A DNA stretch of 64,000 nucleotides from Hydractinia symbiolongicarpus (taxonomy: Eukaryota > Cnidaria > Hydrozoa > Anthoathecata > Hydractiniidae): assembly GCF_029227915.1 (NCBI RefSeq), contig NC_079882.1:5580001-5644000 (forward strand), read 5' to 3'. Position numbers and translations under genes: made by a program. The notes beneath the pieces were generated by a model. The model saw nothing but the letters and a program-made list of their open reading frames with translations. It did not search any database and had not been told where the DNA came from. Shown here in pieces: positions 7,201-64,000 of this stretch. Position 1 is the stretch's first letter. Each line of letters opens with the position of its first letter.

Positions 7201-10200
7201 AGAACAATGACATGCGCACGCATCTCAGTAGGTTCAAAAACAAAAGACCAGGATTCATTCAAGCATATATAAAATAAACAATGCGTGCAAGAGGCCAACA
7301 AAACACCTTGATGTTTTAGGTTAAAAAGGTCGCACCAAGCCTTCTGAAGGCAACAGCCACAGTTGATGCACGAAATGCAGAAATATCATGCAAGCCTGGC
7401 TATGAGTACAAAATTGTTGACGGTAACCAGGATGCAAGTGAAAGAACTAAATGTTGTAAGTGCGAATTAATTTGGAAGTCAAGTTTTTAAAATCAATCTA
7501 TTTCAGTATTTTTGCGATGGAACCAACAATTTTTGGTATAAGACTAAGAAAAAGCCAAGACACTTTTTCCAAAAAAAAATTGAAAAAGAAGGTTTGCACC
7601 CTGCACAAGGCAAATGTATATTTGACTTAATTTTGATTAGACGGTAAGGTTAATCACCACTAAACTGATTTATTTTTTTCTCAAGTAAAATGTCCACGTG
7701 GTACGTATTATGATCAAAAGACAAAGCAGTGTGCCGTATGCAAAGTTGGCTACTATCAAGAAAATGAAGCCTCGCTTTCATGCAAAAAATGCCCAACTAA
7801 AACTTCAACCCATGGTTCGCTTTCACATGACTACCACCAGTGTCGGGGTTAGTATATAATATACTTTGTCAGACAAAATGTTTAAAAATAAAACAGTTAT
7901 AAATTTGAACTAGTGTAAGACGAATTTTACTTACATTCAAGGTTTTGAAAGAGTCCAATTTTTTAATATCTTTTTCAATATTTTTTGGTTTTTTGTGGTA
8001 AAGTTTATTTTAACTTGCAAGAGTAATAATTTTTCAGCAATTTGCCAACCTGGAACATACTCATCAACTGGCTTGGCAACTTGTCTCGCTTGCCCTATGT
8101 CAACATATCAACCGCTAGAAAACAGCACATCTTGTATTGCATGTCCATCTGGAAAAGTGACGTCACATATTGGATCAACATCTATTCAACAATGTTCGCA
8201 GCGTAAGTAGTGGCAGGTTCGGCTCCATGCTCCTAAAGTTTACTATTCTTTATTTCTGTAAAGACTTGGAATGAAGTTGATCAACATCAACAATCTGACA
8301 CGTGTTTAAGATATCAGTAACTTTTGTGCACGAAAAACACTAATTTCCTGTCCTCTTGTATTTTTTGATGGAAAATCGAAAACTCATTTTTTAATCAGCC
8401 TGAATTAGGTAGTTTTAATGACTATAAAAAAAGATAAATCTTAATCAATTCTTGTAAGTTGCTTTTGTCGTGATTTTTTAAAATTTTTAAATCCTCCTCA
8501 AAAACTATTTTATTTTCACTGCACGCACAGCACGAGAATAGATTCTCACAAATGAAAAAAAGATTATTTTAAAAATCATATTGTTTTTACTGCATCATTA
8601 GATTTGAAATTACCATGTAATCCTTAATTGATGTCTATTTCCTCTCGTCTCCAATAGTTAAGCTTAATGACAATACTGATTTTCATCCATTGGCAACAAT
8701 TTGGTAATTAGACAATATAATTAAACAAACCTACGTAATTTGCGGGCTGGTAAAAAAAGAATTGCCTTCATCAGAACTTCATTACTTGTCTGAATATTTT
8801 CCCGTGTGTCGTATGCAAACTAACACTTTTACATTTTGCAGAAGCGATAGACATCTTTTGTCACTGTTTATTCAGTTGCAGGATAAAAATACAAATTCAG
8901 ACAACATTAACTTCGACCTAGTTTAGTTTTAAGCAACTTCGTCCTCAGGCTATTTTGCTTATATTGCCAGTAAATATGTACACTAGCCTTAAGTATCCAG
9001 TAGTCGAATGATATGTTACGCCGAAATTAAGCCTTTTAAATGTACTACAGAAAAAATCTTCTATAGCGGACATCTTTTTAACCTAGGAGGACAGATTTTC
9101 TAACCTCCTGGTCCAACGCACAATATTTTGAGGAACGGATGAGACAACGGTAAAGCTGTCATATAACAAAACCTATTTTTAGGCTATATTTTCCTCTAAA
9201 AACCGGACTTTTTACACACTTGCGGTCGATTTTAACATTTTCTAGTATCTGAGAGCAGGATTTTGAAACAATGTAAACCAATTTGGGAAGTACATATACG
9301 TAGTACACACTTCTCTATGGCAGACAATTTCCTCGGGACCCCAATGGTGTCCGCTATAAAGGTTTCACTGTTGGTGTCCAACCCAGCGTCCACGACATTT
9401 ATTGATGTCTCACTACTACACAAAATCAACACAATGTCGTCGTTCATTGGAGAAAGTTGTTAACAAAAAGATGTTGAAAATAATAACCAGAAAAGGTTTT
9501 TTTTACACGACTAGCTAAATAAATTTTAGAAAAAATTGCGTAATGGCATTTAACGTCATTAACTCGCACGTGGTTATTTCTGAACGCAATAGTCTGCGGT
9601 GATAGTTAGTTCATGTAAAGTATTTCATTCGGAAAAATTTAAAAACAACGCGTCTTCATCGATAGTGATCGTGCAAGAGACGAAGACCCTTTTTCAAATC
9701 TTACCCCTTCCCGGGCCCACAGAAAAGTTATTTCTGACATACTACTCACTATTCTTTACGTACTAACGAAGATAAGTCTGTGACAACAGGTAGAAAAATT
9801 TGTGTTGGATGTTGAGGGATGTCCAGAAAGACAGCCCATTGTATTTTAAAACTTTGCATTTTAAATTAACTTAAAACGTCTGACTTTGTTTGATAGTTGA
9901 TACTGATATTTGCTTCAAGCCTCGCGTTGCTTGTTGCTCATTCGCATTCTAAATTAAAATAAATGTTGCGCATAGCTATCGTTTTACAAAAATAAAAAAA
10001 AGTTCGCAAAAAACACTTACGCTATTCCGTACTCTTTCCTTTTCATTTATGCGCTGTTGCTATAACCCCTCTACCTTTGCGTAAAAACGTGATTATGCAG
10101 CAATTCTGTTTTAAAACATTTAAAAAGAAAGATGTTAAATCCTACCTCCATGTTAAAATTTACAGTGTTAAACACGTTTTTTCCTGCTTCTTTAGCTGGC

Positions 10201-15766: not shown

Positions 15767-18700
15767 ATGGGAGGCAAGTATTCAGTTGTGCAAGATTTAT
15801 CAGGGGATGGACAGAAGGATCAGGTATAATTATTTTAATTATATATATATTTTATATACACAATTTTTTAGAATCAGAATAATTTTTTAACATGAGCAGT
15901 TGATATTCATATAAATTATTAATTATAATTGGATAGTGGTGGAATGAATCATTCAGGGAAATTGTGAAAAAGCAGTTGCAACATTCAGGTTATAAGAACC
16001 TTGGCAGTAAAGATTTTTTTCAACCATCTATATTATACTTGTTTTTTATTTTATATGTATTTTTATATAATATATGTGTTTTTTTCCTATTTATTAAGAA
16101 CCAAATTAGGATTGAGGCTGGACTTGCTTATTTTTTAAACAGTTTTTATTATTATATGTATATATACATTTTATAGATTTATTTACAGCTTCTTACTTTT
16201 TAGGCCATAATTTGTGGCAAAAATGTATATATATACTTTAATTCATAATCTTGTAAACATACTTGAAACTGGGCAAGTTGTTGAGATCTAGATTTTTCGT
16301 TCCTTTTAAAAAAAAGTATGTAAGGTAACATATCTATCTGTTCTAGTTTAAATCTATGATTTTATGATAGTGTCTGAATTGTGCTAATTTGTCTGGTTTA
16401 GCTATTTTGAGTATAATATACTTTAAGATAAATTATGTTCAACATGATCAAATCATGCACATGTTAGCACATGTGGTTTTAAATAATTGTGAAAATAAAG
16501 GGTTATCAAACCAGTATAATACAAAATTATTCCCACCCCTACATTTCCTTCAAGTAGCCCGCGGCATTGTCATTTTTATCAGAAACACATTTGCGAGATG
16601 CTGAATAAAGGAACTAATTTGTTTTAAAAATTAGATTTGTTTGCTCCTCTTTTTGGAAAATTACGATGGTGCAAAAAGCAAACGAAATCAGACAATGTTT
16701 TCATTTTTGTAGCAGGACTAACTATTTCAACAGTTGAAAACTATATACATTTTTCTCATCTTCAACACCAACACCAACAGCTTGCCAGCTGTTTGTAAAT
16801 TCTTGCTGTTAATTTTGCACAGATGGGTTGTAATATTTACTGTTCAGTAGAGTTAACATTAATTTAAAGTTTAAAAAAGAAAAATATTTATCAGAAATAA
16901 TGTAATTTATAATTTAATGAAATAATTCAGAAGTTTATTTCAGACATCAATTTCTCTATTAAGACAAATAATATGCACCTTCCTCTTTTTTTAAGCCATG
17001 CGGTGATCCGAAATGTCAAAGACCATCGTGTATTGGTAACACTTGTGGGATCCCTGGATGCCAGCGCCAATCTTGTGTTGTAAGTAGAAATTTTTTTGTT
17101 TATTTAGAGAAAGAAATCTTGACAGCATCAACCATAATTGCTCATTAATGATATGGATGCAAACTACACACAAATTTTTAAATCCAATAAGCCATGATGT
17201 ATTTCCATCTTAGGTTCCTTCAAAGGAAATCCAGTATAATGGAGATGAGAATGCAAGAAAGAATCGTCCTAAAGAAGAAAAGCCATGTGGCAATCCAAAA
17301 TGTCGAAGGCCGTCATGTATTGGTAACACTTGTGGTATCCCAGGATGCCAGCGGCCGTCTTGTATGGTAAGGAAAAAACTTGTTGGTGTTGATGTAAGCT
17401 CTAGATTATAAACTCTATTTTAAATGAAAAGTCAAATTCATACTTTATTTTAATCTTAGGTTCAGCCAACAGAAACTCTTACTAATGTAGTGGATAATGA
17501 CAGCAATGACCTTCCTAAAAGGGATGTTGTACTAGAGGAGGAGGAAAATGAGAAAATCCCTGTTATTGCATCACAACCAGAGGTAGAAGATGTTAAAGAA
17601 GCACCAATTAAATGCACACCCTCATCTCTTGAGTCTGAAGCTGCACCACGAGAGAAACCAGAAATAATTGTTCCAGTTGATGACGTTGTACAACAACCAG
17701 TTGTTCCTGTTCCAGCACCACGTGTCTCCTCCCAGTCACTTCCATCTAATGAGAAGCCTAATGCCTTGCAACAAGATGTTAACAATCAAACCCCTGTATT
17801 TATACCGGTTCCGGTCCCTAGAAAACAGAGTACTAAGAAAGAACCTGAAGATTTTTCAAAAAAAGCACAACCAGAAGATGATGACATTTCCAAAGCTGTA
17901 CCAACTCATATTTCTACAATGAAAGAACCATTAGCAGGTAAGTTTTAACATTTAAAAGATCCTACTAATTATCGGCCTATCTCCATTTTGCCAATTCCTA
18001 TGAAAATTTTTGAAAAGTTAGTGCATGAGCAAATGTCTCATTTTATTTCTGAGCACAACTTCCTGAATGACAGACAGTCCGGATTTCGAAAACTCTTTTC
18101 CACAGAAACTGCAGTAGTCGATGTCTCTGATTTTATTCTTACTGAGCTTGACCAACATAACTTTGTTTGTGCTGTGCTCATTGACCTTAAAAAAGCTTTT
18201 GACACTGTTGATCATAAAATTTTGTTAAAAAAACTATGGTGTTTTGGCATCAGAGATGCTGCCTTTGACTGGTTCGAGTCCTACTTAACGGGCCGAATGC
18301 AGCTGACTCTTGTAAACGACACAGGATCAGATCTGCTTCATGAAGACGCTTTTGGGGTGCCGCAGGGATCTGTGTTGGGGCCCCTGCTCTTTCTTTTGTA
18401 TATTGATGACTTAAAATCTGTCATCAATTCAAACTACCACCATCTATATATATGCAGATAATACAATAATTATTTCGTCTCATAAAAACTTGGATACCCT
18501 TGTCTCCCAGGTCGAGTTAGAACTTTCGCAAGTCGACCTCTGGCTGAATAATAACAAAATGACTATTAATACGGACAAAACTGAAACAATCTTTTTCGGC
18601 GACCACAGCCAGTTAAAAAAAGTTGAGAACAAAACTATCAACTATATGGGTATTCCTTTGAAGAGGAGCGAAAAAGTTAAATATCTTGGGGTAACATTTG

Positions 18701-21700
18701 ATCAAAAAATGCAATGGGAAAAGCACATTAATGACATAAATAGAAAAATACTAATTAAATATTCTAAAATTAGAACCATTGCATCCTGTTTAACACCTCA
18801 CACAAAAAACCTTTTAATTAATGCACTTGTCATGCCATATTTCAACTACTGCTCCTCGGCATGGGCTTGTGCCACCCAAGGTAGATTGGGAAAACTAGAA
18901 AAACGATTAAAATGTGTCCGTACCTTTCTTGGGAAAGAGAGGGAATATTCAATGAATAATTTACTCATCAAAAACGATGCCATATTAGTTTTCAAAGCCA
19001 TGAATCACATTGCTCCTGATTACATGCGCTCAAAATTCCTTTTGACAAAAAACTGTCATAATCATCAAACAAGAGGAGCTTCAAAAAACAGGTTCACACT
19101 TCCCTTGGTCAACACGGAATTTGGCAAAAAAGCCTTCCCATTTAGAGCTGCAAAAGTGTGGAATAATCTTACAGACCAAGTGACCTGTGAAGGAAGTCTG
19201 CTTCCGTTTAAGACTTCCATCTCTAATGTATTTGGCAAATTCTAATGGAGATCACTTTTTAACTTTTTAATTTTTGTTTTTCATTCTTTTTCTTTTCAAT
19301 TTTCACAGATTATAAATGTTACTATGTTTTATTGAGCTGAGGTAGTCTAAGGTTTATCATTTTTTGTTTCTTTTTTGTTCTAGTGGCCCCCAGTGGAAAC
19401 AATCCACTAACTATAGGTTTTTGTGATTTTCTGGGCTAGCCACTTTAAATATTTATTATTATTATTTTCATTATTTATTTTATTATTAATAATTGTTCTT
19501 GGTTGGCTGATCCACTAGAACATTCTGTATTAACCCTATTCGCTCCGGGGTTTTTCGAACATACTATGACCAGGGGGGGCGGATTCCACTCCCCCCTCAA
19601 TAACTTTTCATAGGATTGTTCAAATTGAATCAAACTTGGCACACTTATAGTACGTCATAAAAGGAACAAAATGGCGGCAATAAATGTTTGCTTGCGTCAG
19701 CAAATTTTTTGTGACGTCATCAGAAGCTTGAAAATTGTTAAAAATGCCACTATCTGCTTAAAATATAATTACTTTTGTTCTAGAGCGAATTTTTACATTC
19801 TGTTTGAAGTTTCTGAAAGCTAAATAAAATGTTTTTAACATATCTTCCGGTTTTTACATGGATCGAATAAAAAATTGCCAAAAATTGCCTGAAAATCCGT
19901 TTTTTCCCGATTTTCGGGTAAAATCCGACAAAATCGGGAAATCGGATTAGTCACGTGTCAAAATTATTCAAAATGATTCTTCTTGACAAAACAAAGTTGT
20001 GTTGCAAGTTTCAAGTTCTAAGGATAATCCTAACAGGAGTTATTATATTTTCCTCATTATAAGGATTTCATAGAGATTTTAGGGGTAGTTTCGAGTAATG
20101 GCCAATATCAAAGCCTCTGAATGGTATGGGACCTAAAAATTTAGCATGCAGGTGTCTAATAGATAAATGTTGAAACTCAGTAAGTATCATAGCCATATAA
20201 GAAAGCAATCAGGAGTTATTAAAAAAAAAACCGTCAGGGGGGCGGAATCCGCCCCCCGGACCGAATAGGGTTAAGCAATTTTTGCGTTACTTTTGCACAA
20301 GGCGAGTGATTAAGTATTCAGAATGATTGTAATCATTCAATGTAGGTATAATGAAAATAAACCTTTCAGAAAAATGATGTAATTTTCCTTATGTTCAAGC
20401 GAAACATGAAATTTTCTGCCTGGTGAATGCCACCTAACCTAAAAAGCACTAGACAAATGCTTTACACTTTTTGCCAATGTAATAAAAAAAGGAATTCAGC
20501 CATTTGTAATTTTTCATATTTTGTTGGATTTGATGACGTCCTTGACATTTGACCAAGTTGTTACTTTATCCTGGGTATTATTTGTGGTGCCATGTACAAT
20601 TGTAGAACTACCCCTATAAGAATAGCTGGATGTGTGAAATTGTATACTGGATTTAACTTTTTGATGATTTGCATTTATTAAAAAAAAGCAACCAAAAAAC
20701 GAAAAAAATCGAGCAACTTCAACTCCAAGCAAATTTTATTATAAAAGTTTTTTGATAGAGCTATGGACATTTGATATCTATAGTTGTTTGCATAAATCAG
20801 TATTAATAATGCAGTTGGATCTTATCAACCATCCCGAAAATTAAAAATCATAAGGAAAGCAACTTCACCTACTTGTGCAAAGATGACAAACCACTACATA
20901 GACAATTTTAAAAATATTGTGTGTAAGCAAAATTTACTGAGAGAAAATTATTGTTAGGGAATCTTTGTCTATTTCTATCTGACAAAATTAATTATTTTCG
21001 TCAATATTAGCAAAAATTGGATCAAGGAAAAAATATCCCTCTTTTATTTATGCCATTTTATAATTGTTTCAGTGTTTGGTTCTTATAGAAACTGTCAGTC
21101 TTTGTGGGACTGAAAAGTGATGGATAAAAGCTAATTCAGTTCCTTGTCAATTTGATTTATTAGATATAAGTCATAGATTTATAAACCAGTACTAATTTTA
21201 AAGAAAGAACCAAAAACTCAGTTAAAGTAAATTTTATATTTTTTTGCAGACACTGATAAAATTGAGCAATCGGATGTGCCAGAAATGATACCTTTTATAA
21301 TGCCTGAACAGGAAACACTAGAAGAGCCTGTTGCTGCATCAGTGGAATCAGAACCGCTTCCAGTGCAGCAAGACCTTGCAGATTTACCAACACCTCAAGA
21401 GAGAACAGAACCTGAAAGCACTTTTGGTCCTGACCCTGTGGCATTGCCTATCATGCCTGAATTTAAATCAACAACACTAGTTTTACCTGAACCTAATGCA
21501 ATACCCGAAAAATCCGAAAATTCGCCCATTGGCATACAAACAATTAAATCAGAGCCGCTTCCAGTGCCCCCAGAATTGATGGATTTACCAACAAGTTCAG
21601 ACACAACAGAGCCTGAAAGCACATTTAATCCTGACCCTGTGATATTGCCTGTCAAAGCCGAAGGGCAGCTACCAAAGATTCAACCATCACCAATAATCTT

Positions 21701-24700
21701 ACCAAGGCCAAAAAATCCCAATCAGGTACCTATTGTTGAAGACCTGGTCAATTCATCCATTGTAGAACCACCACTAAGGTTAAAACCATTTCCAGTGAAG
21801 CAAGAACCCTTTCCTGATTCACCAAAACGTGCAGAAATGCCACAACCCGAGGAAGAATATGGTACCATTGACTTACCACCTGGAGAAAGAGAGGCAACTG
21901 CAGCACCTGAAATAACTAAACCATCGCCAGTAATTTTACCGGAAACAGAAGTGCCCACTGAGATACCTGATGTTCCAACTGTTAAAGAACCTACAAAGTC
22001 ACTGGTTGATTTCCCACCAGTAGAATCAGGGGCACCTTTCATACCTAAAGTAAGTGCCCCATCAGTAGTACATTTACCTGAACCAGAAATGCCCACTGAG
22101 ACACCTGTTGTTCCAACTGTTGAAGAACCTACAAAGTTACCAGTTGATATACCAACAGTGGAATCGGAGGCACCTGCAGTAACTGACCCATCACCAGTAA
22201 TTTTACCTGAACCAGAATTAGCCACTGAGACACCTAATGTTCCAACTGTTGAAGAACGTATGAAATCACCGATTGATTTAGCACCAGTAGAATCAGAGGA
22301 ACCTGTAGCACCTAAAGTAACTGACCCATCACCAGTAATTTTACCTGAACCGGAAGTGCCCACTGAGACACCTGATGTTCCCACTGTTGCAGAACCTATG
22401 GAATCACCAATTGATTTACCACCAGTAAAATCAGGGGCACCTTTGATACCAAAAGTAACCGATTCATCACCAGTAATTTTACCTGAACCAGAATTACCAA
22501 CTGAGACACCTGTTCTTCCAACTGTTGAAGAGCGTATGAAATCACCGATTGATTTACCACCAGTAGAATCAGAGTCGCCTGTAGCACCTGAAGTAACTGA
22601 CCCATTACCAGTAATTTTACCTGAACCGGAAGTGCCCACTGACACACCTGATGTTCCAACTGTTGAAGAACCTATGGAATCACCGATTGATTTACCACCA
22701 GTAGAATCAGAGGCACCTGTAGTAACTGATCCATCACCAGTAATTTTACCTGAACCAGAATTACCCACTGAGACACCTGATGTTCCAACTGTTGAAGAAC
22801 GTATGAAATCACCGATTGATTTACCACCGGTAGAATCAGAGGAACCTGTAGCACCTAAAGTAACTGACCCATCACCAGTAATTTTACCTGAACCGGAAGT
22901 GCCCACTGAGACACCTGATGTTCCAACTTTTGAAGAACCTATGGAATCACCGATTGATTTACCACCAGTAGAATCAGGGGCACCTTTGATACCTAAAGTA
23001 ACTGATCCATCCACTGTAATTTTACCTGAACCAGAATTACCCACTGAGACACCTGATGTTCCAATTGTTGAAGAACGTATGAAATCACCGATTGATTTAC
23101 CACCAGTAGAATCAGAGGCACCTGTAGCACCTAAAGTAACTGAACCATCACCAGTAATTTTACCTGAACTGGAAGTGCCCACTGAGACACCTGATGTTCC
23201 CACTGTTGCAGAACCTATGGAATCACCAATTGATTTACCACCAGTAAAATCAGGGGCACCTTTGATACCAAAAGTAACCGATTCATCACCAGTAATTTTA
23301 CCTGAACCAGAATTACCAACTGAGACACCTGTTCTTCCAACTGTTGAAGAGCGTATGAAATCACCGATTGATTTACCACCAGTAGAATCAGAGTCGCCTG
23401 TAGCACCTGAAGTAACTGACCCATTACCAGTAATTTTACCTGAACCGGAAGTGCCCACTGACACACCTGATGTTCCAACTGTTGAAGAACCTATGGAATC
23501 ACCGATTGATTTACCACCAGTAGAATCAGAGGCACCTGTAGTAACTGATCCATCACCAGTAATTTTACCTGAACCAGAATTACCCACTGAGACACCTGAT
23601 GTTCCAACTGTTGAAGAACGTATGAAATCACCGATTGATTTACCACCGGTAGAATCACAGGCACCTGTAGCACCTGAAGTAACTGACCCATTACCAGTAA
23701 TTTTACCTGAACTGGAAGTGCCCACTGAGACACCTGTTTTTCCAACTGTTGAAGAACCTACAAAGTTACCAGTTGATATACCAACAGTAGAATCAGAGGC
23801 ACCTGTAATAACTGATCCATCACCAGTAATTTTACCTGAACCAGAATTACCCACTGAGACACCTGATGTTCCAACTGTTGAACGTATAAAATCACCGATT
23901 GATTTACCACCGGTAGAATCAGAGGCACCTGTAGCACCTGAAGTAACTGACCCATTACCAGTAATTTTACATGAACCGGAAGTGCCCACTGACACACCCG
24001 ATGTTCCAACTGTTGAAAAACCTACAAAATTACCTGTTGATTTACCACCACTAAAATCAGGAGCGCCTTTCATACCTAAAGTAACTGACCCATCACCAGT
24101 AATTTTACCTGAACCGGAAGTGCCCACTGAGACATCTGTTGTTCCAACTATTGAAGAACCTACAAAGTTACCAGTTGATATACCAACAGTGGAATCAGAG
24201 ACACCTGTGGCACCTGTAGTAACTGATCCATCACCAGCAATTTTACCTAAACCGGAAGTGCCCGCTGAGACACCTGATGTTCCAACTGTTGAAGAACCTA
24301 TGGAATCACCAATTGATTTACCACCAGTAGAATCAGGGGCACCTTTAATACCAAAAGTAACCGATTCATCACCAGTAATTTTACCTGAACAAGAATTATC
24401 CACTGAGACACCTGTTCTTCCAACTGTTGAAGAGCGTATGGAATCACCGATTGATTTACCACCAGTAGAATCAGAGGCGCCTGTAGCACCTGAAGTAACT
24501 GACCCATTACCAGTAATTTTACCTGAACCGGAAGTGCCCACTGACACACCTGATGTTCCAACTGTTGAAGAACCTATGGAATCACCGATTGATTTACCAC
24601 CAGTAGAATCAGGAGCGCCTTTCATACCTAAAGTAACTGACCCATCACAAGTAATTATACCTGAACTGGAAGTGCCCACTGAAACACCTGTTGTTCCAAC

Positions 24701-27700
24701 TGTTGAAGAACTTACACCAGTAATTTTACCTGAACCAGAATTACCCACTGAGACACCTGATGTTCCAACTGTTGAAGAACGTATGCAATCACCGATTGAT
24801 TTAACACCAGTAGGATCAGAGGCACCTGTAGCACCTAAAGTAACTGACCCATCAGCAGTAATTTTACCTGAACCGGAAGTGGCCACTGAGACACCTGATG
24901 TTCCAACTGTTGAAGAATCTACAAAATTACCTGTTCATATGCCAGCAGTGGAATCAAAGGCGCCTTTGATACCTAAAGTAACTGACCCATCACCAGTAAT
25001 TTTACCTGAACTGGAAGTGCCCACTGAGACACCTGTTTTTCCAACTGTTGAAGAACCTACAAAGTTACCAGTTGATATACCAACAGTAGAATCAGAGGCA
25101 CCTGTAGTAACTGATCCATCACCAGTAATTTTACCTGAACCAGAATTACCCACTGAGACACCTGATGTTCCAACTGTTGAAGAACGTATGAAATCACCGA
25201 TTGATTTATCACCAGTAGAATCAGAGGCACCTGTAGCACCTGAAGTAACTGACCCATTACCAGTAATATTACCTGAACCGGAAGTGCCCACTGAGACACC
25301 TGATGTTCCAACTGTTGAAGAATCTAAAAAATTACCTGTTGATATGCCAGCAGTGGAATCGGAGGCGCCTTTGATGCCTAAAGTAGCTGACCCATCACCA
25401 GTAATTTTACCTGAACTGGAAGTGCCCACTGAGACACCTGTTTTTCCAACTGTTGAAGAACCTACAAAGTTACCAGTTGATATACCAACAGTAGAATCAG
25501 AGGCACCTGTAGTAACTGATCCATCACCAGTAATTTTACCTGAACCAGAATTACCCACTGAGACACCTGATGTTCCAACTGTTGAAGAACGTATGAAATC
25601 ACCGATTGATTTACCACCGGTAGAATCAGAGGCACCTGTAGCACCTGAAGTAACTGACCCATTACCAGTAATTTTACCTGAACCGGAAGTGCCCACTGAC
25701 ACACCCGATGTTCCAACTGTTGAAAAACCTACAAAATTACCTGTTGATTTACCACCACTAAAATCAGGAGCGCCTTTCATACCTAAAGTAACTGACCCAT
25801 CACCAGTAATTTTACCTGAACCGGAAGTGCCCACTGAGACACCTGTTTTTCCAACTGTTGAAGAATCTACAAAGTTACCAGTTGATATACCAACAGTAGA
25901 ATCAGAGGCACCTGTAGTAACTGATCCATCACCAGTAATTTTACCTGAACCAGAATTACCCACTGAGACACCTGATGTTCCAACTGTTGAAGAACGTATG
26001 AAATCACCGATTGATTTACCACCGGTAGAATCAGAGGCACCTGTAGCACCTGAAGTAACTGACCCATTACCAGTAATTTTACCTGAACCGGAAGTGCCCA
26101 CTGAGACACCTGATGTTCCAACTGTTGAAGAATCTAAAAAATTACCTGTTGATATGCCAGCAGTGGAATCTGAGGCGCCTTTGATGCCTATAGTAACTGA
26201 CCCATCACCAGTAATTTTACCTGAACTGGAAGTGCCCACTGAGACACCTGTTTTTCCAACTGTTGAAGAACCTACAAAGTTACCAGTTGATATACCAACA
26301 GTAGAATCAGAGGCACCTGTAGTAACTGATCCATCACCAGTAATTTTACCTGAACCAGAATTACCCACTGAGACACCTGATGTTCCAACTGTTGAAGAAC
26401 GTATGAAATCACTGATTGATTTACCACCGGTAGAATCAGAGGCACCTGTAGCACCTGAAATAACTGACCCATTACCAGTAATTTTACCTGAACCGGAAGT
26501 GCCCACTGACACACCCGATGTTCAAACTGTTGAAAAACCTACAAAATTACCAGTTGATATACCAACAGTGGAATCAGAGACACCTGTGGCACCTGTAGTA
26601 ACTGACCCATCACCAGCAATTTTACCTAAACCGGAAGTGCCCGCTGAGACACCTGATGTTCCAACTGTTGAAGAACCTATGGAATCACCAATTGATTTAC
26701 CACCAGTAGAATCAGGGGCACCTTTAATACCAAAAGTAACCGATTCATCACCAGTAGTTTTACCTGAACCAGAATTACCCACTGATACACCTGTTCTTCC
26801 AACTGTTGAAGAGCGTATGGAATCACCGATTGATTTACCACCAGTAGAATCAGAGGCGCCTGTATCACCTGAAGTAACTGACCCATTACCAGTAATTTTA
26901 CCTGAACCGGAAGTGCCCACTGACACACCTGATGTTCCAACTGTTGAAGAACCTATGGAATCACCGATTGATTTACCACCAGTAGAATCAGGAGCGCCTT
27001 TCATACCTAAAGTAACTGACCCATCACAAGTAATTATACCTGAACTGGAAGTGCCCACTGAAACACCTGTTGTTCCAACTGTTGAAGAACTTACACCAGT
27101 AATTTTACCTGAACCAGAATTACCCACTGAGACACCTGATGTTCCAACTGTTGAAGAACGTATGAAATCACCGATTGATTTAACACCAGTAGGATCAGAG
27201 GCACCTTTAATACCAAAAGTAACCGATTCATCACCAGTAATTTTACCTGAACCAGAATTACCCACTGATACACCTGTTCTTCCAACTGTTGAAGAGCGTA
27301 TGGAATCACCGATTGATTTACCACCAGTAGAATCAGAGGCGCCTGTAGCACCTGAAGTAACTGACCCATTACCAGTAATTTTACCTAAACCGGAAGTGCC
27401 CACTGACACACCTGATGTTCCAACTGTTGAAGAACCTATGGAATCACCGATTGATTTACCACCAGTAGAATCAGGAGCGCCTTTCATACCTAAAGTAACT
27501 GACCCATCACAAGTAATTATACCTGAACTGGAAGTGCCCACTGAAACACCTGTTGTTCCAACTGTTGAAGAACTTACACCAGTAATTTTACCTGAACCAG
27601 AATTACCCACTGAGACACCTGATGTTCCAACTGTTGAAGAACGTATGAAATCACCGATTGATTTAACACCAGTAGGATCAGAGGCACCTGTAGCACCTAA

Positions 27701-29123
27701 AGTATCTGACCCATCAGCAGTAATTTTACCTGAACCGGAAGTGCCCACTGAGACACCTGATGTTCCAAATGTTGAAGAATCTACAAAATTACCTGTTGAT
27801 ATGCCAGCAGTGGAATCGGAGGCGCCTTTGATACCTAAAGTAACTGACCCATCACCAGTAATTTTACCTAAACCGGAAGTGCCCACTGAGACATCTGTTG
27901 TTCCAACTATTGAAGAACCTACAAAGTTACCAGTTAATATACCAACAGTGGAATCAGAGGCACCTGTAGCACCTGAAGTAACTGACGCATCACCAGTAAT
28001 TTTGCCTGAACCGAAAGTGCCCACTGAGACACCTGTTGTTCCAACTGTTGAAGAACCTACAAAGTTACCAGTTGATATACCAACAATGGAATCAGAGACA
28101 CCTGTGGCACCTGTAGTAACTGACCCATCACCAGTAATTTTGCCTGCACCAGAATTAACCACTGAGACACCTGATGTTCCAACTGTTGAAGAACGTATGA
28201 AATCACCGATTGATTTACCACCAGTAGAATCAGATGCCCCTGTAGCACTTGAACTAACCGACCCATCACCAGTGTTTTTACCTGAGGCGGAAGTACTCAG
28301 TACTGAGACACCTGTTCTTCCAACTGTTGAAGAGCCTACAAAATTACCAGTTGATATACCAACAGTAGAATCAGGGGCACCTTTAGCACCTGAAGTAACT
28401 GAACCATCACCAGTATTTTCACCTGAAGCGGAAGTACCCAGTACTGAGACACGTGATGTTTCCACTGTTGAAGAACCTATTGAAACACCGATTGATTTAC
28501 CACCACTGAAATCAGGGGCACCTGTAGCGCCTAAAGTAACTGACCCGTCACCAGTATTTTTATCTGAACCGAAAGTCCCCACAGAGACACCTGTTGTTCC
28601 AACTGTTGAAAAAGCTCTGAATTCACCGATTGATTTACCACCAGTAAAATCAGAGGCACCTGTAGGACCTGAAGTAACTGACCCATCACCAGTAAGTTTA
28701 CCTGAACCAGAAGTGCCCACTGAGACACCTGATGTTCCAACTGTTGAAGAACCTAAGAAATCAACGATTGATTTACCGTCAGTAGAATCAGAGGCACCTG
28801 TAGAACCTGAAGTCATTAAACCATCACCACTAGTTTTACCTGAAGGAAATAGCAACTCTGTGACAACTGCTGTTAAAAAACCTGATGTAGCATTTCTTCC
28901 CACATCGTCTAAATCAAAGTCTTTGCCGGAGGAGAACGACTTTAGCCCTAGTAATAACGAAATACCTGATATGGATAGTGAAAACGGTGTTGAAATGGAC
29001 CTAGCATCTAATGCTTTCTCTCCAGATAATAAATCTGACAAAAACAAAAAGAAGAGATTTGTATTGAAAAGAAAATCGAAGCAGGGTAGTAAAGTAGCAA
29101 TGCTTAGAATGAAGTTTTCGTGA
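15767..29123 (+). CDS. Giant Pro/Glu/Val repeat protein with two C-x4-C cysteine motifs
   Basis: Exons: 15767-15823, 16996-17079, 17214-17366, 17460-17937, 21250-29123, in phase throughout, giving 2881 aa. Exon 1 begins MGGKYS, an N-myristoylation-type start rather than a signal peptide; an in-frame stop lies upstream. Exons 2 and 3 each encode a motif of six Cys spaced exactly C-x4-C (CIGNTCGIPGC at its core). Exon 4 is acidic and Pro-rich. Exon 5 (2624 residues) is mostly about fifty repeats of 43-46 residues containing VILPEPEVPTETPDVP and PIDLPPVESE, with no Cys, Trp or Tyr that I saw in the array. It ends in a Lys/Arg-rich tail (KNKKKRFVLKRKSKQG). Likely a long, extended structural or linker protein anchored at one end. 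The Cys motif recalls minicollagen Cys-rich domains, but spacing differs and there is no collagen. I do not recognise the family; function unknown. The first exon is the least certain part. Confidence 0.78.
17948..19495 (+). mobile_element. 5'-truncated non-LTR retrotransposon (LINE) with broken reverse transcriptase
   Basis: The sequence from about 17955 encodes the fingers-palm part of a non-LTR reverse transcriptase (NYRPISILP, VLIDLKKAFDTVDH, GVPQGSVLGPLLFLLYIDDL). The frame breaks near 18445 in an AT run just before the YADNT box and resumes to a stop at 19245 with the thumb/C-terminal part. The active-site box reads ADN rather than the usual ADD. A short 3'UTR ends in an ATT-rich tail (19450-19495). 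There is no endonuclease or ORF1, so this is a dead 5'-truncated copy, jockey/CR1-like by its motifs. It begins about 10 bases after the host donor site at 17938. Confidence 0.88.
19530..20274. mobile_element. piggyBac-type MITE (745 bp) with TTAA target site
   Basis: The element is flanked by TTAA on both sides (19530-19533 and 20271-20274). Its termini are inverted: the left end starts CCCTATTCGCTCCGGGG and the right end, read on the other strand, starts CCCTATTCGGTCCGGGG. Both ends then carry a subterminal GGGGGCGGATTCC block. It has no transposase, so it is non-autonomous. TTAA duplication plus a CCCT terminus identifies the piggyBac superfamily. It sits about 35 bp after the LINE tail in the same intron. 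Confidence 0.85.
20275..21249 (+). other. Rest of intron 4 of the repeat-protein gene
   Basis: AT-rich intron sequence between the MITE and the acceptor tttttttgcag that ends at 21249. No exon or repeat is recognised here. Confidence 0.5.
21896..28850 (+). repeat. Coding tandem array, 138/129-bp units
   Basis: There are about fifty head-to-tail units, mostly 138 bp (46 codons), with recurring 129-bp variants lacking the three codons of the APK segment. Every unit keeps frame. Two alternating subtypes are visible: one with EEPMESPIDLPPVE and one with EEPTKLPVDIPTVE. Degenerate units lie at both edges and near-identical units in the middle, as expected from unequal crossing-over. A shortened unit (VEELTPVILPEPEL) recurs near 24710, 27090 and 27585. 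Confidence 0.93.
22390..24020 (+). repeat. 819-bp higher-order duplication inside the array
   Basis: The block starting near 22391 (GAACCTATGGAATCACCAAT) recurs, almost unchanged, 819 bp later from 23210. This equals five 138-bp units plus one 129-bp unit. Further along, blocks near 25057, 25462, 25867 and 26272 repeat at a 405-bp period (138+138+129). Their very high identity shows recent expansion. Confidence 0.85.
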
Positions 29124-30583: not shown

Positions 30584-33500
30584 TTAGTATTCGTCATCTT
30601 CCTCATCAGGTTGACTGTTGCCGCCGACTTCTTCGTAATCGCGTTCCAAACCAGCTAAATCTTCCCTTGCTTCGTTAAACTCTCCCTCTTCCATTCCTTC
30701 TCCGACATACCTACAAAATTTTTAGTAAGCTGTTTTATTTTTCGCAAATACTAATTATTGTTCTTTTAAAAAATGAAATTTCGGGGGTCAGATTTTTCAG
30801 ATTAAAATATTTCTCTCCTGGCGAATACCTGGATAGAAATTATTTGCGGATCTGCAAAAATAGACTAAATACGTTTTTGCCTCTTCTAGAAATACTGAAT
30901 CTTTTGCATCCGCAAAAATTAATTTTGCAAATTAAAGGAAAACGTAGTCGTCCGCAAAAAGTATTTTTTTCTTTGACGACTACTATTTCTAGCCGCCATG
31001 TTTCTTAACCATGGTAGAATTGTGCATCGTTGTTAAGTAAATTTGTGTCTCTTTTACACAGGCTGCACTCTTAATACGTTAAAGTGGTCACGTGTTATGG
31101 TCACTAGAGAACATGTCAGTATTTTTTAACCTTCTGTGACGATAATTGATGTTTTTTAAAGTCATAAAGAGTTAAATAGATTCGGAAATATAAATTTTAG
31201 TGAGTCAGTTGTTTCCGTCGTTCTTGTGGCTACATATAGGACAAAAGAGGTGGGAAAAAAAAATGCCGAAAGTTTTAGCCGACGACTTATTTATGTCTTA
31301 CTATTTAATTAGTGAAATTTTAATTGGCATAGACAAAGAATTATAGAAAGAATCCATGTCTAACAAACAGACGATTCGACTTTCTCGATAACACTTACCA
31401 GTGAACAAAAGCTCTCTTTTTGTACATCAAATCAAATTTATGATCCAATCTTGCCCATAGCGAAGCCATAGCGGTTGTGTTGCTCAACATGCACACTGCA
31501 CGCTTGACGGGAGCAAGATCGCTACCTGTTGAAAAAAACATCATTACAGAACCGTAACCATAACCATAACCATAACCGGAATTAAAAGGCCGTCTCAAAC
31601 TGAAAAAAAAAGTTGTATGAAGAAATGATAACCTCTTCACGTACATATATATATTTATATTTTGCCGGCTAAAGCAATAGTTACTTGCCTACAATGAATT
31701 ATTCTAGCAGAATAAAAACGATTTTGAAGAAGATTGTTTACCTTCTTGTGCGTAAAGCGTTTGGTTATTAATTCCAACTTTAAATCCGGTTGGACACCAA
31801 TCAACAAATTGTACAGAATGCATTGCCTTAATTTTTGTGATAGCCGCGTTCACTTCTCTTGGTTGCACGTCGCCACGATACAAAACACAGCACGACATGT
31901 ATTTCCCATCCTTTGGATCGCATTTTACCATTTGGTTCTGGGCTTCAAATACACTTTTTGTAATCTCGCTAACATCAAGAGCTTGATGGTTAGCTTTTTC
32001 TTTAGAAATAATTGGTGCAAAACTAGCCAATGGGAAATGAATTCTTGGGTATGGCACCAAATTAGTTTGAAATTCATTTAAATCAACATTTAATTCACCT
32101 AAAAGATAAAAATTAATCGTCTCAAAACCTTCAATTATTTTAAGGACAGACGTATTTGAACTAAACATTTTTATTTGAATCTTTATAGTAAAAAGTGAAA
32201 TAAACAACATTGCTAGTCAAAATAATCGCTTAGGTGACAACTTTAAAATCTTAAAAGAAAAACCACTTGGATAAACTCCCCACTAAAACACCATAAAATG
32301 CAAAAGTTTGCTACCTTTGTATTGACTAAAAAAAGGACGTTAAGAGTGTGTATTGATATTCGTGGTGTATGTATGAGAAAGGTAGGAAAGTTTTTAAGAT
32401 CAAATACATCATTTAGCTACCATGGATGGCTATTTTGTAAAATTCACATAAAAAGGTTAAAATTGTCATAAATTACAAGGTTGTTTTAGCTTTTAAGATA
32501 TATGCGCAAAAGTTAACTAACCTTCAAATCGAAGAGAAGCGGTGATGGATGATACAACTTGACTGATCAAACGATTCAAGTTTGTGTAGTTTGGTCTTTC
32601 GACATTCAAATTATTTCGACAAATATCATAGATAGCTTCGTTGTCCACCATAAATGCGCAATCGGAATGATCAAATGTAAAATGGGTTGTCAAAACGGAA
32701 TTATAGGGTTCTACAACTGCGGTGGAGACTTGCGGTGCTGGGTAAACTGCAAATTGCAATTTGCTCTTCTTTCCGTAATCAACTGATAAACGTTCCATTA
32801 TTCTTGCAGATAAACCTGACCCTGTACCTCCTCCAAATGAGTGAAATAATAAGAAGCCTTGTAGACCTTCACACATATCCGTCTAAAAAGATTTCATGAG
32901 GTATTAACCTGTTCTGTGTTTCATAAGCTATGTTGCCGAAACCAAATAAGACTTCAATAGATCCGCCTTTTCTATATCAACATTCAACCCCCTTTCATTT
33001 CTTAATCACACCCCAGAAAAAAAAATTCATGGCATAAGAAACCGTTTTTAAATTCAAAAGGTGATTGCCATGAGACATAAAGAATAGTGGAAACTAAGTT
33101 GTAAAATGAAAATGTATATTTCAACTTACAAGTCTTCGAACTTTATCGAGAACTTGATCCACCATGGCCCTACCAACTGTATAATGACCTCGTGCAAAAT
33201 TGTTTGCAGCATCTTCCTTGCCAGTGATTAGTTGTTCAGGATGGAACAACTCTTTGTATGCACCAGTTCTTATTTCATCTAAAAATATTTAATCAGTTCA
33301 ATCAATTAAACAAATAAAGAAGCGAATAACCGATCATACGTATTTCACCCAAAGGACCTTGTCCCGCATAGCAACGGTGGCTTTGGGAACACAAGCATGA
33401 AAGGATATATCTTGTTTGCCGGTCAAAAACAGGGGCTGTTATATACGAAATTTTTAGCTACTCTTTTCTTCCACAAGTTTTCATACGCAACGAAAATTTA

Positions 33501-56188: not shown

Positions 56189-57523
56189 ATGGATCAGCTA
56201 AAGCTTGTTGGATTTTGTTGCGTGTTGTTGATTCTAAATGTTGAAGGTAAGAAAATATTTGTTACCTGAATTTCGTTTATTGTTTGAAGCTTCGAGAGGG
56301 TTTTACAGTCACGAAGTATTAAAAAGGAGGAAATTGTAAACGCCTGGTTATATAGCTAATAGACTAACATTCCATGTGACGAACCTATTAGAAAATACGT
56401 ATTTATATATAAGAAAGTTAGGCAGTGGATTCATTCTAGATGTTTAACCACCTCGAAGAATGACCTCTGGTAGTATTTAGCAGATCTGCAACTTTCTATA
56501 TAAAGAAATTGTCATCTTTGTTTCCATGCTTTTTCCTTCTTTTAATATGACAGAAGTAGCGAAAAATTCTAATTTCAAAGTAAATTTTGCAGTCTTTATT
56601 TCATAATAAAAAGGAAAAAAGGTCTGGGAACAAAGCTTATCATGTTTTTTCTTTTCATTGTTTTTTTGAATTTCTTGGGGCAGGAGTATATACCCACATA
56701 ATTTTTCCTTATTACTTAACTTAAATATCATTTTTCATCTCGTATTATAGGAGCGATTTCTTCTTGCGATGACTTGTTAAAGACATACCTTGAGTTAACT
56801 GGTAAGAACTCTTTGAAATCTAATGTTTTAAAAGTATTTGTCCAATGGCTGACTAAACAAGTAGCAGGCTAATGCATTGTTAATGAGTTTTCAGTCTTTC
56901 AATTCCAATACTTTGCAGTTCAGAACACAAGAAATCGTTATTGCACATAACCGTTCATGTTGAGAAATCCTGCTAGCATTGTTGGATGGACTAGAATATG
57001 GCACGTGTCGTGTAATCTTACGAGAAAAAACAATAAATAAGCGAAGAAATTTTAAATAAATGTCAACAGGAAATTACAAATAAAATATTAGCTTTTATAA
57101 ATTTTTCTTCGAGAAACACCATTATAATTTGATCACTTAGGAATGATTAGGGTCAATATGACAAAATAAGGTTAATGTAAATACACCTTTTCCGAATTTA
57201 TTTTCTTTGATGTGCCGCAGCTCTTTCTCAACCTTTTTAAAAAAAATGAATGTAATTTTCGAAATCCTTACATGAAAATTAATAAATCGTGAAATTTTCA
57301 TATTCATACATCAAACAAACAACCTGCTACAACAGTTTTTTTAATTTTGTACTAATTCACTTTTGCTCGAAGATGAGAAAACATCAAAATTCCAAAATTA
57401 AAAAAAAATGTAATTCGGAAAGCGTGTATTACTTAGTGTAATATTACTGATTGTCCAGGCTATACGCTTTTAAAAGAACAAATCATAGAGTGCAAGCAGC
57501 ACATTCGTACAACTTTAGAGTGA
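56189..57523 (+). CDS. Small secreted peptide or protein, unrecognised
   Basis: Exons 56189-56246, 56751-56801 and 57459-57523 join in phase 1 to 57 aa. Exon 1 encodes a clear signal peptide (LVGFCCVLLILNVEG) and ends at a gtaag donor. The mature part, about 37 residues, starts near AISSCDDLLKTY and has two Cys (in SSCDD and IIECKQH), with helical, amphipathic-looking spacing. The stop TGA at 57521 overlaps a possible GTGAGT donor at 57520, so a longer isoform with further exons is possible. The layout (signal-peptide exon, then short phase-1 exons) resembles the downstream peptide-precursor gene. No known family is recognised. A venom-like, antimicrobial or signalling role would be guesswork. 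Existence of the gene is likely; its exact 3' end is not. Confidence 0.55.
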
Positions 57524-59736: not shown

Positions 59737-59765
59737 TGACGTCATGGATGATAAGGTATATATAT
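59737..59765 (+). promoter_or_regulatory. CRE (TGACGTCA) plus TATA box upstream of the peptide-precursor gene
   Basis: A full palindromic cAMP-response element, TGACGTCA, at 59737-59744 is followed 12 bases later by TATATATAT at 59757-59765. The start codon is at 59831, leaving room for a short 5'UTR of about 40 bases. CRE-TATA pairs are common in neuropeptide promoters, which fits the gene's apparent nature. In AT-rich DNA the TATA alone means little; the eight-base CRE is the better signal. Confidence 0.5.
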
Positions 59766-59830: not shown

Positions 59831-62800
59831 ATGAAGATGACTTTCGTCGCGAAATTATTGGTCTTTTCACTATGTGTTGTATTGGTGTGTAGCTACAAGC
59901 TTGAAAATTCAGGTGGTAAGGAAAAAGGAGAAAATGCTTCTTCTACGTTATTTAATATTAAAAAAAGTTGAATTATTATAGAATAAAATTAGAAATATGC
60001 AAGGCATATAATTAAGCTGTCATCTTTGCATATTATAGCAAAGCAAACACAATTTTTCATAAACTTCAACTACGCAAAAAATATCCATCGGCTGGACTGC
60101 ATTGATATCCGGACATTTAAAATGTTCACATCAATGCTAGCCAAAAATATCAAGCTGCAAAACTCGATTCAACGTTTTAAAATTTAACTGTCAAGAAACC
60201 ATATAAAAGCGGTATAACTAGGTTTTCTAACATGCACGCTATTTACAAGAACTATCTATATCCTGAGATTTACTCAACAGTATGAATGTGCCATGCATAA
60301 GCCCGCAGTCACAATCCTTATTTAAATTACGTAAGTTAGGACATGATTTATCAACCCTTAAAATTTGAGATGGATACTAGTCGTGAAAAGAATTACCAAC
60401 AAAAATAAAATACAATAAAAACGAACATTTAGTCAAAATCTAAACATCTTTTTTTGTCAATAAAAAATAAATACTATGGTTTAACCATAATTTATGTCTG
60501 AATCTGTGTTAGAAAGATCTAAGCGAACACGGTTACAGTAATTACAGCCATTTATTAATATAGTTCAAAACTGCTACTTTATCTCGTATTGTGCCTCGTT
60601 ATTTTATAGATGTCGACAATCATAATTCCGACTCAACCGAAAACCGTAACTTCGAATCGACGGACAATCAAAAACGTGATCTAAGTAAGCAAACTTTTTG
60701 CGTTTTTAATTATTCCAATGCATTAATCTTGACGCAATAAGAAAAGAAAAGCTACCAGGAGCATCTATTTGTTCTAATGTCTAGTACAGATACCTAAAAA
60801 TAAATAACTTTCTATAAGTTTTTTATAGAAAGTTTCAAATAAGAGCTTTGTTAAGCTGCGCCGCCAAGGTTTTTTTATTAGAACGCAATACAGTTTAACA
60901 AAAGTTTGTAGGTTTAGAATTATATGCTGGGAAGAGATTTAAATTTTCATGACTACTATTAATTAAATTTTATTAAGATATACTTTACTTTTGCTTTCTT
61001 CACCATCTTTTTTGGGTTTCGGTGGGTTCAAACCCTGTGCTAATCGTTCCAGCGAGGAATTAAGCCTTTTAAGAGTTGATATTTTAGTTGATTTTCTGAT
61101 AAGGAATTTTCCTGCTCTCACAAATCGTTATCTAAACTGGAACTTCTTTATAAGATCCGTTTTTTTAAAAAAAAATCAGTAAAATTCTTTTCACCTTAAA
61201 TAGAAATCCTAAAACCACTCGGGATTCCTTTGCGTTTTCTTGTTGATGATTAATATAAAGAATAATTTAATAATTTAATAGTTTTAAATAATAAATATTA
61301 GCACACACAAGATTTTAGGCAAACCGTTCTGGTTCGCCCCATGTTCCATCAGACCTGTAATTTCTAGAACCCAGACCCTAGATTACCACGTGCCAAATAC
61401 TCCGCAGGTGTATAGTCAAACTGGATCTCAGGAAGCATAACTATTATTTCAACACTGTTTTGTCCAATTTTTCACATTATTTTATTGTTTATTTGATTCA
61501 GCATCAAGAAACGAGTTAAATCATGCCGAAGACACACGTAAGTCAAAATGACTTGTTATTCTAATTGCTGTAACTCAACAGTCTACTTGTGTTATAAATG
61601 ATACATTTTTTTTCAATGTAGCGTTGAGACTTGGACGTGAAGCAAAACGAAAAACGCGTAAGTTTCGTTAACTTTTGAATAAGAGAGAAAGTGTGTTTCT
61701 GTTCTAGTTATACATTTTCCCAATTTCAAGCATTTTAAGGTAAATATCATTTTTTAATTTCTTGAAAGTTTCTGATATATCTATACATTTACAATTTCAG
61801 CATTAGGGTTTAATCGTGCACGTTGGTTTCCATTAGCAACAATTCGAAGCTACATTGCACGTTTAAAACTAAGTCACGATTTGTTTTCCTTGAAACAATT
61901 CTTTTACTGGCAAAATTGTTTTTTTAGCGTTAAGACTTGGAAGAGAATCTGATCGTGGTCGAAATACACGTAATATTTTTTTTCATTATTATTTTATGAT
62001 ATCCCATAACCAAAACAAGCATACCAAATTGCGTGGTGAACACTGGCTCCACTCTGCAATATACCTTAAAAATTAAAATAATCAAAGTTCAATACTAACT
62101 AACATAAAGACCAGAACTCTTTCAAGAACGCTCTCAATAAGATCTACTGAAACTTTTTCGACGCAATATTTAATTAAGGATTTAAATAGTAGGAGAATGC
62201 ATAAGACACACGCAAACACCGTGCGCTAGACGAGTTGAGCGGTAGACTGATATAATGGTGCAAGTCTGGCTCATATTGTCTACAATAAACCAAATAACAA
62301 ATATATAATAAAATATAATAAAATAACCAAATAACATAACACAACAAAAAAATTCGTTATTACACCTTTTACCCATCCTATGCTCTTTCAGCTTTAAGAC
62401 TTGGCCGTGAATCTGATCAGGCAAGAAACACACGTAAGTCTTGGTTATCTAATGCTGTAAAAATATTTCACAACATTTCGATTCATTTTCTATAAAAAAT
62501 ATTTTAGCCTTACGACTTGGACGCGAATTATATCATGAAAGAAAAGACATACGTAAGTCATGAGTTAAACTCACAGCATCATAGGAATTTATGGTAAAAA
62601 ATGAGATCTCTTTAGACTAAGTTCCAGTTCTGTCGTTAGTTTTCTTTGAACAATAGATGCACAACATATCAGTTGATTGAAATCAACGAAACTTATATTG
62701 CCAAATAACACCTATATTTCTATATAGCATTAAGACTGGGGCGAGAATCGGAAGATGACACTCGTAAGTTCACCAAATCTTTATCTTTTCTAAATAGCCG

Positions 62801-64000
62801 CTCTTTATTTTATTTTCACTGCTTAAAAGCAGGAAATATAACAGCCAACTGATTTTCCCAATCTGATTCTTGATCAAAAGAGATGTAAGGATAGAGAAAT
62901 AAAGAGTTCCACAACAATACTGTATTATTTTATGATAATTCAGAGCGTTGTAAGAATTTATTGCGTTCTTGCAATTTTTAGCGATTTATATTTTTGCCAC
63001 TCCAATTATATTTAGCTTTACGACTTGGACGAGAATCTAACTATGCCAAGGAAACTCGTAAGTTTCTTTTAGATAATAGAAACACAGCATGTAAATTGAT
63101 TGAAATCAAATAAAACTTATAATGCTTAATATCTTTGTTTAGCATTAAGACTGGGGCGAGAATCTGATCGGGCAAGAAACACACGTAAGTTCACCAAACT
63201 TCATTTTTTCTAAATAACTGCATTTATTGGGTCTAAAAATGGGAGCTGAAACATCCCATTGCTTTTTCGGTTAAAACAATTTATATATGAAAAGAGACTT
63301 AAGAAAATCCTATAAGTACATGTCAGTGCAACGAGAGAGATTGCTACAAGGAAAAAACTTTAAATACAACCGCGTACATTGTTGCTTTGTCGAGCATCAT
63401 ATCGTGAAAAAGCAGGTTTTTATTCTGACACTCCAATTATGTTTAGCTTTACGACTTGGACGAGAATCTAACTATGCCAAGGAAACTCGTAAGTTTCTTT
63501 TAAACAAGAGATACATAATATTAACTGATTGAAGTCAATTAAAACATATATTGCAAAATAAGCATAAGATTGGGACGAGAAGGCTCTAATTCTAAAAACA
63601 ACACACGGTCAAGCTTTTTTTGATAAATCACTGTTTGCGATTTACGCTAGGAAATTTACACAGCTTTTCATCTTTAGCATTAAGACTTGGAAAACACTCT
63701 CGTTACGCTGAAGACACATGTAAGTTGCATTTGAAGAATCAATTCCATCTTACAGGCCACTTGAATATACTGTCGTTCTGTTCTAACTGAATTCACAGCA
63801 GGGAGCTATATTTCAGCTGTATTTTGATTTTTCAATGATAATATCAGTTTAATTGCAGCGTTAAATATTAATTATTCCACTAAAACAAAAATGATCACAA
63901 AAATTTGTTATGAAACTAAAGTAGATACATAAACGAAAGATCACTGTACCTATCAATTGCTTCATTGTGTCCTTTTAGCGTTAAGACTTGGACGGCAACA
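59831..64000 (+). CDS. Putative amidated-peptide (PLRL-NH2) precursor built from microexons; 3' end beyond window
   Basis: Exon 1 (59831-59915) encodes a signal peptide (VAKLLVFSLCVVLVCS). Then come an acidic spacer (60610-60684), a linker (61502-61537) and microexons, all phase 1-1: 61622-61657, 61801-61821 (degenerate, PLGFNRA), 61928-61969, 62392-62433, 62508-62552, 62728-62763, 63016-63057, 63143-63184, 63447-63488, 63678-63719 and a partial one from 63979. Except for the degenerate one, each encodes PLRLG followed by Arg (Lys in 63678), then ESDRARNT, ESNYAKET or similar; the leading residue comes from the split codon. LRLG-Arg is a classic amidation and processing site, so about ten copies of a peptide ending PLRL-NH2 are predicted, for example NTPLRL, ETPLRL and DIPLRL amides. 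Basic residues (R, K, RK) three residues upstream could set the N-termini. Probably a neuropeptide preprohormone; the family is not one I recognise. The splice from 63719 to 63979 changes Pro to Ser. Confidence 0.82.
62500..63606 (+). repeat. Tandem two-exon cassettes within the peptide-precursor gene
   Basis: Microexon pairs plus flanking introns repeat: (62508+62728), (63016+63143), (63447+63563). The spacing between equivalent second members is 415 and 420 bp; between first members of the last two cassettes it is 431 bp. Intron stretches also match, for example CACTCCAATTAT before the first exon and TTGATTGAAATCAA between the exons. The first exons at 63016 and 63447 are identical in coding sequence. 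Confidence 0.8.
63563..63606 (+). pseudogene. Dead microexon of the peptide-precursor gene
   Basis: The sequence after the AG acceptor reads CATAAGATTGGGACGAGAAG, where working copies read CATTAAGACTGGGGCGAGAA. One T is missing, which creates TAA in frame, and the donor GT after ACACAC has become GG. It occupies the place of the second exon in the third cassette and must be skipped for the precursor to stay open. Confidence 0.75.

Follow-up and report, generated by a model that had tools for sequence, protein, structure and literature searches.

A probable secreted multi-copy preprohormone gene with one predicted PLRLG[R/K] peptide per microexon in Hydractinia symbiolongicarpus

Introduction

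The end of a 64,000-nucleotide stretch of the Hydractinia symbiolongicarpus genome (contig NC_079882.1, forward-strand positions 5,580,001 to 5,644,000; hereafter the window, numbered from its first letter) raises the question of whether a series of very short exons, each carrying one copy of a PLRLG[R/K] motif, belongs to a gene for a peptide precursor, and how such a gene would relate to known peptide systems. On the + strand, the final 4.2 kb (59831–64000) can be read as a single gene, with the exons read directly and assembled by script. We find that these exons very probably form a gene that codes for a secreted multi-copy preprohormone, to which each motif microexon would contribute one PLRLG[R/K] peptide. 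The exon layout, the reading frame and the selection acting on the motif can be recognised in the DNA itself.

Results

The first exon (59831–59915), translated as MKMTFVAKLLVFSLCVVLVCSYKLENSG, opens with ATG and encodes a predicted signal peptide, MKMTFVAKLLVFSLCVVLVCS, followed by YKLENSG, with the cleavage point placed by eye; it ends in phase 1 at the donor GTAAGG. The signal peptide was judged solely by the Kyte-Doolittle hydropathy of the first 21 residues, which peaks at 2.78 at residues 11–21, and every hydropathy window from residue 21 on is negative. Exon 2 (60610–60684, 75 nt) encodes a hydrophilic propeptide and has the donor GTAAGC. It is followed by a 36-nt microexon without PLRLG (61502–61537), which encodes ...HAEDT and ends in the C that starts the first Pro codon. 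The motif microexons then lie at 61622–61657 (36 nt, PLRLGREAKRKT), 61928–61969 (42 nt, PLRLGRESDRGRNT, donor GTAATA), 62392–62433 (42 nt, PLRLGRESDQARNT), 62508–62552 (45 nt, PLRLGRELYHERKDI), 62728–62763 (36 nt, PLRLGRESEDDT), 63016–63057 (42 nt, PLRLGRESNYAKET), 63143–63184 (42 nt, PLRLGRESDRARNT), 63447–63488 (42 nt, again PLRLGRESNYAKET, in the downstream copy of a two-exon block that is present twice) and 63678–63719 (42 nt, PLRLGKHSRYAEDT, with a final T that makes the next junction codon Ser). The tenth, [S]LRLGRQ..., starts at 63979 and is interrupted by the window end at 64000.

An earlier note on this DNA had claimed at least ten such exons of 36–45 nt. The array is real, and strictly it comprises nine complete motif microexons of that length range and one partial, each with a single [P/S]LRLG[R/K]. 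The same note had described the motif exons, which follow a signal-peptide exon, as all phase 1-1, and this agrees with the 13-exon series, in which 12/12 visible exon ends are in phase 1. The joined frame contains no stop codons, whereas the two alternative frames contain 11 and 16. The introns measure 74–817 nt.

The LRLG[R/K] pattern occurs ten times across the six frames of the window, always within its last 5 kb, and 0–2 times in each of 20 mononucleotide shuffles. A scan whose criteria were chosen after the array had been seen, for in-frame stretches of 30–54 nt bounded by a pyrimidine-rich YAG and by GTAAGT, returned eight exons on the + strand, all of them in the array (61502 and seven of the nine complete motif exons); the motif exons at 61928 and 62508 fall outside these criteria. 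The same scan returned one exon on the - strand; applied to 50 resamples of the + strand drawn from a first-order Markov model, it returned 0–3 (mean 0.38). The donor GTAAGT follows eight of the nine complete motif exons, the exception being the GTAATA of 61928. Strong donors would be expected if very short exons need reliable recognition. For comparison, four introns of a Sec61 alpha stretch elsewhere in the window, located by eye, have the donors GTTTGA, GTATGT, GTAAAA and GTAAAA; the best PDB matches of this stretch are SEC61A chains (321.7 bits), which we take to be mammalian. Taken together with Sushi, HYR and Ephrin_rec_like domains in the window, these matches point very probably to animal DNA.

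Differences between the copies point to selection on the encoded peptide. In pairwise comparisons, the motif codons L-R-L-G-[R/K] show 98 silent against 9 replacement codon differences, and all nine of the latter trace to the single Lys copy. The spacer codons show 33 silent and 154 replacement differences when compared by position without gaps, a procedure in which length differences inflate the replacement count. Counted as distinct single-base variants, nine of ten changes in the motif codons are silent, against 14 of the 45 possible (binomial 2e-4, treating the variants as independent and free of transition bias, though the copies are related by duplication). The Pro codon split by the junction takes all four forms, CCA, CCC, CCG and CCT, and in a single case reads TCG (Ser). 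Copy-to-copy identity was calculated over 35 of the 36 possible pairings of complete motif exons, the identical 63016 and 63447 being set aside. It is 0.78 over the opening 18 bases of the exon, 0.54 over its final 12 and 0.92 over the donor hexamer; the intron values are 0.30 (-60 to -21), 0.38 (-20 to -4) and 0.32 (+7 to +46). We rejected a chance array or an unspliced repeat because exons and donors are conserved and most intron flanks, with identity near background, are not, and because the frame and the bias to silent change are strong. Most introns have thus diverged almost to background, whereas the encoded motif has been preserved apart from one Ser and one Lys copy, and the array bears the signature of a peptide precursor and not of a structural repeat. 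The earlier proposal of a secreted multi-copy precursor with one PLRLG[R/K] per symmetric microexon is supported.

This pattern of constraint also bears on a different kind of secreted product. The exons of schistosome micro-exon genes (MEGs) are symmetric, as they are in the array. MEGs encode secreted proteins from exons of 3–81 bp (PMC10526429), and the combination of a signal peptide with many short symmetric exons would suit a protein of this kind, acting whole, uncut and variable. In the array, however, constraint falls on PLRLG[R/K], a signature of cleavage and amidation, and the spacers vary and carry frame-keeping indels, whereas in a functional repeat protein one would expect the whole unit to be conserved. 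A conserved core that is a cleavage and amidation motif sets the array apart from MEGs, and the likeness is one of layout only, in the secreted product and the many short symmetric exons. We consider a MEG-like protein improbable.

The unit pattern in most copies is [T/I]-PLRL-G-R-E.... In all ten copies Gly is followed by R or K, and an R stands three residues before that basic residue, which gives a C-terminal cleavage motif R-x-x-R in nine copies and R-x-x-K (R-L-G-K) in one. An annotation script for neuropeptide preprohormones uses a minimum of three copies (PMC6909153); at least three copies with a C-terminal Gly and basic residue are present here, namely all ten LRLG[R/K]. Mass spectrometry in Nematostella has confirmed that peptides are released C-terminally at dibasic sites and, in some cases, at monobasic Rxx-R sites. 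It has likewise confirmed N-terminal cleavage at Q, or with Pro in positions 2 and 3; in some cases one Pro, in either position, suffices, often with an acidic neighbour (PMC11087051). Nine of the ten copies have the x-Pro motif that would allow N-terminal cleavage at non-basic residues, counted as a motif only. Directly ahead of the predicted N-terminus stands an acidic residue in six copies, Asn in three and Lys in one.

Under the proposed route of maturation, exon 1 would provide the signal peptide, and each motif microexon would yield one immature peptide with its spacer, the first motif residue, Pro, being assembled over the splice junction from the exon-final C and the CN that opens the next exon. 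Within the secretory pathway, cleavage by a prohormone convertase behind R-L-G-R (in one copy R-L-G-K) would be followed by loss of the basic residue to a carboxypeptidase, and PHM/PAL would amidate the peptide from the Gly. Trimming of the N-terminus to the x-Pro motif would then leave TPLRLamide, IPLRLamide and TSLRLamide. The best-supported product is TPLRLamide, with eight predicted copies, beside one predicted IPLRLamide and one TSLRLamide. Alternatively, monobasic cleavage could fit the seven of ten copies in which a K or R stands one or two residues before T/I, and would leave the N-extended forms NTPLRLa, ETPLRLa and similar; the other three copies lack a basic residue close to the N-terminus.

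The layout of the exons has consequences for the peptides that splicing might produce. With every exon in phase 1-1, any selection of them can be joined in frame, and exon skipping or duplication would alter peptide copy number with the frame intact. The final base is C in eight of the nine complete motif exons and in 61502, and the first base is C in all ten motif exons, so Pro is restored whichever motif exon comes next. The junction after 63678 would give Ser, and a motif exon spliced directly to exon 2, whose final base is A, would give Thr. Control of copy number by splicing is possible on these grounds.

Some parts of the array are duplicated and others degenerate. The block with exons 62728 and 63016 recurs as 63143 and 63447, with 352 of 451 aligned bases identical and 120 gap columns; exons 63016 and 63447 are identical (42/42), and the spacers of 62728 and 63143 differ by frame-keeping indels. 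The alignment indicates that the array has grown, at least partly, by tandem duplication of a two-exon block. At 63563–63606 (+) lies a degenerate motif exon which, by eye, has one base missing, would bring in a stop if joined, lacks a pyrimidine tract, has a poor acceptor and donor, and looks dead. A doubtful 21-nt degenerate exon (PLGFNRA, 61801–61821, +, donor GTTGGT) was excluded from the final model and may be another remnant. These two units and the weaker donor at 61928 would be in keeping with a former peptide gene that is now partly or wholly non-functional, yet frame, motif and GT/AG sites are kept in 9/9 complete motif exons despite near-background identity in most intron flanks, and we regard a decaying or silent array as highly improbable.

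A promoter-like stretch on the + strand (59737–59765), 66–94 nt upstream of the ATG, contains a cyclic AMP response element (CRE) palindrome, TGACGTCA, at 59737 and the sequence TATATATA at 59757. As a promoter, this CRE/TATA stretch is suggestive only, and we give it little weight because TGACGTCA is found seven times in the window. These perfect palindromes lie at 8158, 14105, 19712, 39732, 39753, 58538 and 59737, against about 0.6 expected from base composition by a hand calculation (the window has about 33% GC).

Other features of the window lie upstream of the array. A second small secreted-protein-like model at 56190–57520 (+) was drawn by eye, with an ATG exon MDQLKLVGFCCVLLILNVEG and further exons with Cys (SSCDDLLKTYLELTG, YTLLKEQIIECKQHIRTTLE); its first two junctions are in phase 1. 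Alpha-tubulin-like exons at 31707–32882 (-) differ at several positions from solved tubulins and may represent a diverged or decaying copy. A single open frame of 2630 residues, counted from stop to stop, spans 21231–29123 (+) and consists of Pro/Glu/Val-rich repeats with periods such as 69, 138 and 276 nt; its opposite strand also has long open frames. This repeat-rich frame is adjoined by a reverse transcriptase like that of a long interspersed nuclear element (LINE), recognised by eye at 17949–19245 (+) in two overlapping frames. When viral contigs were searched with the reverse-transcriptase frame for contaminant loci, none of 4 pattern matches was confirmed. Sushi, HYR and Ephrin_rec_like domains at 4169–8207 (+) probably belong to an extracellular multidomain gene.

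Discussion

The evidence from exon layout, frame and silent change argues for a gene that encodes a secreted precursor with one peptide copy per microexon, and from such a precursor we infer that the peptides would be processed, amidated and used as transmitters, that neurons would express the gene and that its splicing would vary. Several points weigh against this reading. The gene continues past the window end, which leaves its 3' end, its stop codon and the full number of copies outside. The exact N-terminus of the peptides is uncertain because the preceding residue is acidic in only six of ten copies. The joined precursor matched no Pfam family at E 0.1. The one clearly degenerate and the one doubtful unit are signs that the array may be decaying in places.

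A more far-reaching proposal is that TPLRLamide represents a new amidated family, with dose and mixture set by the splicing of at least ten interchangeable microexons of 36–45 nt, with junctions that rebuild Pro, and with an array that grows and dies exon by exon. We put this forward tentatively, with the balance of probability somewhat against it. If true, it would offer a compact natural case of peptide copy number encoded as exon number, in which exon duplication in evolution and exon skipping in regulation act directly on peptide dose. It would also add an amidated peptide for which we found no name, with a C-terminus resembling those of hydrozoan PPRLamides and spiralian myomodulins, and TPLRLamide would be relevant to the question of whether these RLamides share an origin or have converged. 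Gene finders that discard very short exons may also overlook precursors built exon by exon.

Searches for relatives of the predicted peptide covered the literature and two sequence collections. A literature search for PLRLamide, PLRLG, TPLRL and like forms returned no cnidarian neuropeptide paper by title, and LRL and LRLG were absent from the main text of the cnidarian papers searched, with the supplements, which often print precursors, outside the scope of that search. Searches combining PLRL, neuropeptide and Cnidaria, and searches by phrasings of one peptide per exon, found none. In viral and prokaryote contigs, collections not expected to hold animals, tblastn confirmed no relative of the precursor among 6 and 50 pattern matches. 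The earlier note had assigned an x-TPLRL-amide to no named family, and for named cnidarian peptides the literature search agrees; it had left unconsidered the LRLamide ends of molluscan myomodulins.

Myomodulin precursors use dibasic spacing, and a dibasic site after Gly is found in none of the ten array copies. Myomodulins end in MLRLamide (PMC5996578, PMC7749107, PMC4200219), and those of spiralians are usually described as ending in RLamide/RMamide and PRXamide (PMC8557429). The array gene resembles them in a C-terminal LRLamide (LRLG[R/K] in 10/10 copies, with amidation predicted) and in several copies per precursor. It could thus be argued that the gene is of spiralian myomodulin type, its LRLamide peptides being lophotrochozoan and not cnidarian, and the K or R shortly before T/I in seven of ten copies would permit monobasic cleavage. 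The remaining three copies are without such a residue, and the residue before LRL is Pro in nine copies, Ser in one and never the Met of the published termini, on which ground strict membership among the myomodulins was rejected. A myomodulin-type gene is in our view unlikely, though it is the most credible of the alternatives.

With a multi-copy preprohormone as the preferred reading, the nearest peptides by sequence within the hydrozoans are the X1PRX2amides LPPRLamide, APPRLamide and WPPRLamide (PMC8638164). TPLRLamide has in common with these PPRLamides, as published there, the frame x-P-x-R-L-amide, and differs at residue 1, which is variable, and at residue 3. X1PRX2amides need Pro before Arg, whereas all ten array copies have Leu there, and membership was rejected for the absence of the PRX core. 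The coelacanth LPXRFa-2, a vertebrate peptide of the GnIH family, ends in LPLRLamide (PMC6200920) and so has its PLRLamide C-terminus in common with the predicted array peptides. This resemblance is most likely convergent; membership in the GnIH/LPXRFamide family was rejected, as the copies end in RL and not RF (10/10).

The closest precedent for the layout is the Hydra GRFamide preprohormone-C gene, in which a signal-peptide exon is followed by exons with one peptide copy each; it has ten exons in total, exon two has a stop, and three transcripts contain different exon sets (PMC8638164). Because of this precedent, one peptide per microexon is less singular than the earlier note had claimed, while the array itself stands. 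The repeats of preprohormone-C are mostly non-amidated pQWLSGRFGLxxx, in contrast to the PLRLamide predicted here, and the small uniform exons of the array gene are perhaps a further difference from the Hydra gene as described. Within the published account of the Hydra gene, the two genes have in common one peptide copy per exon and peptide residues that are completed across exon junctions.

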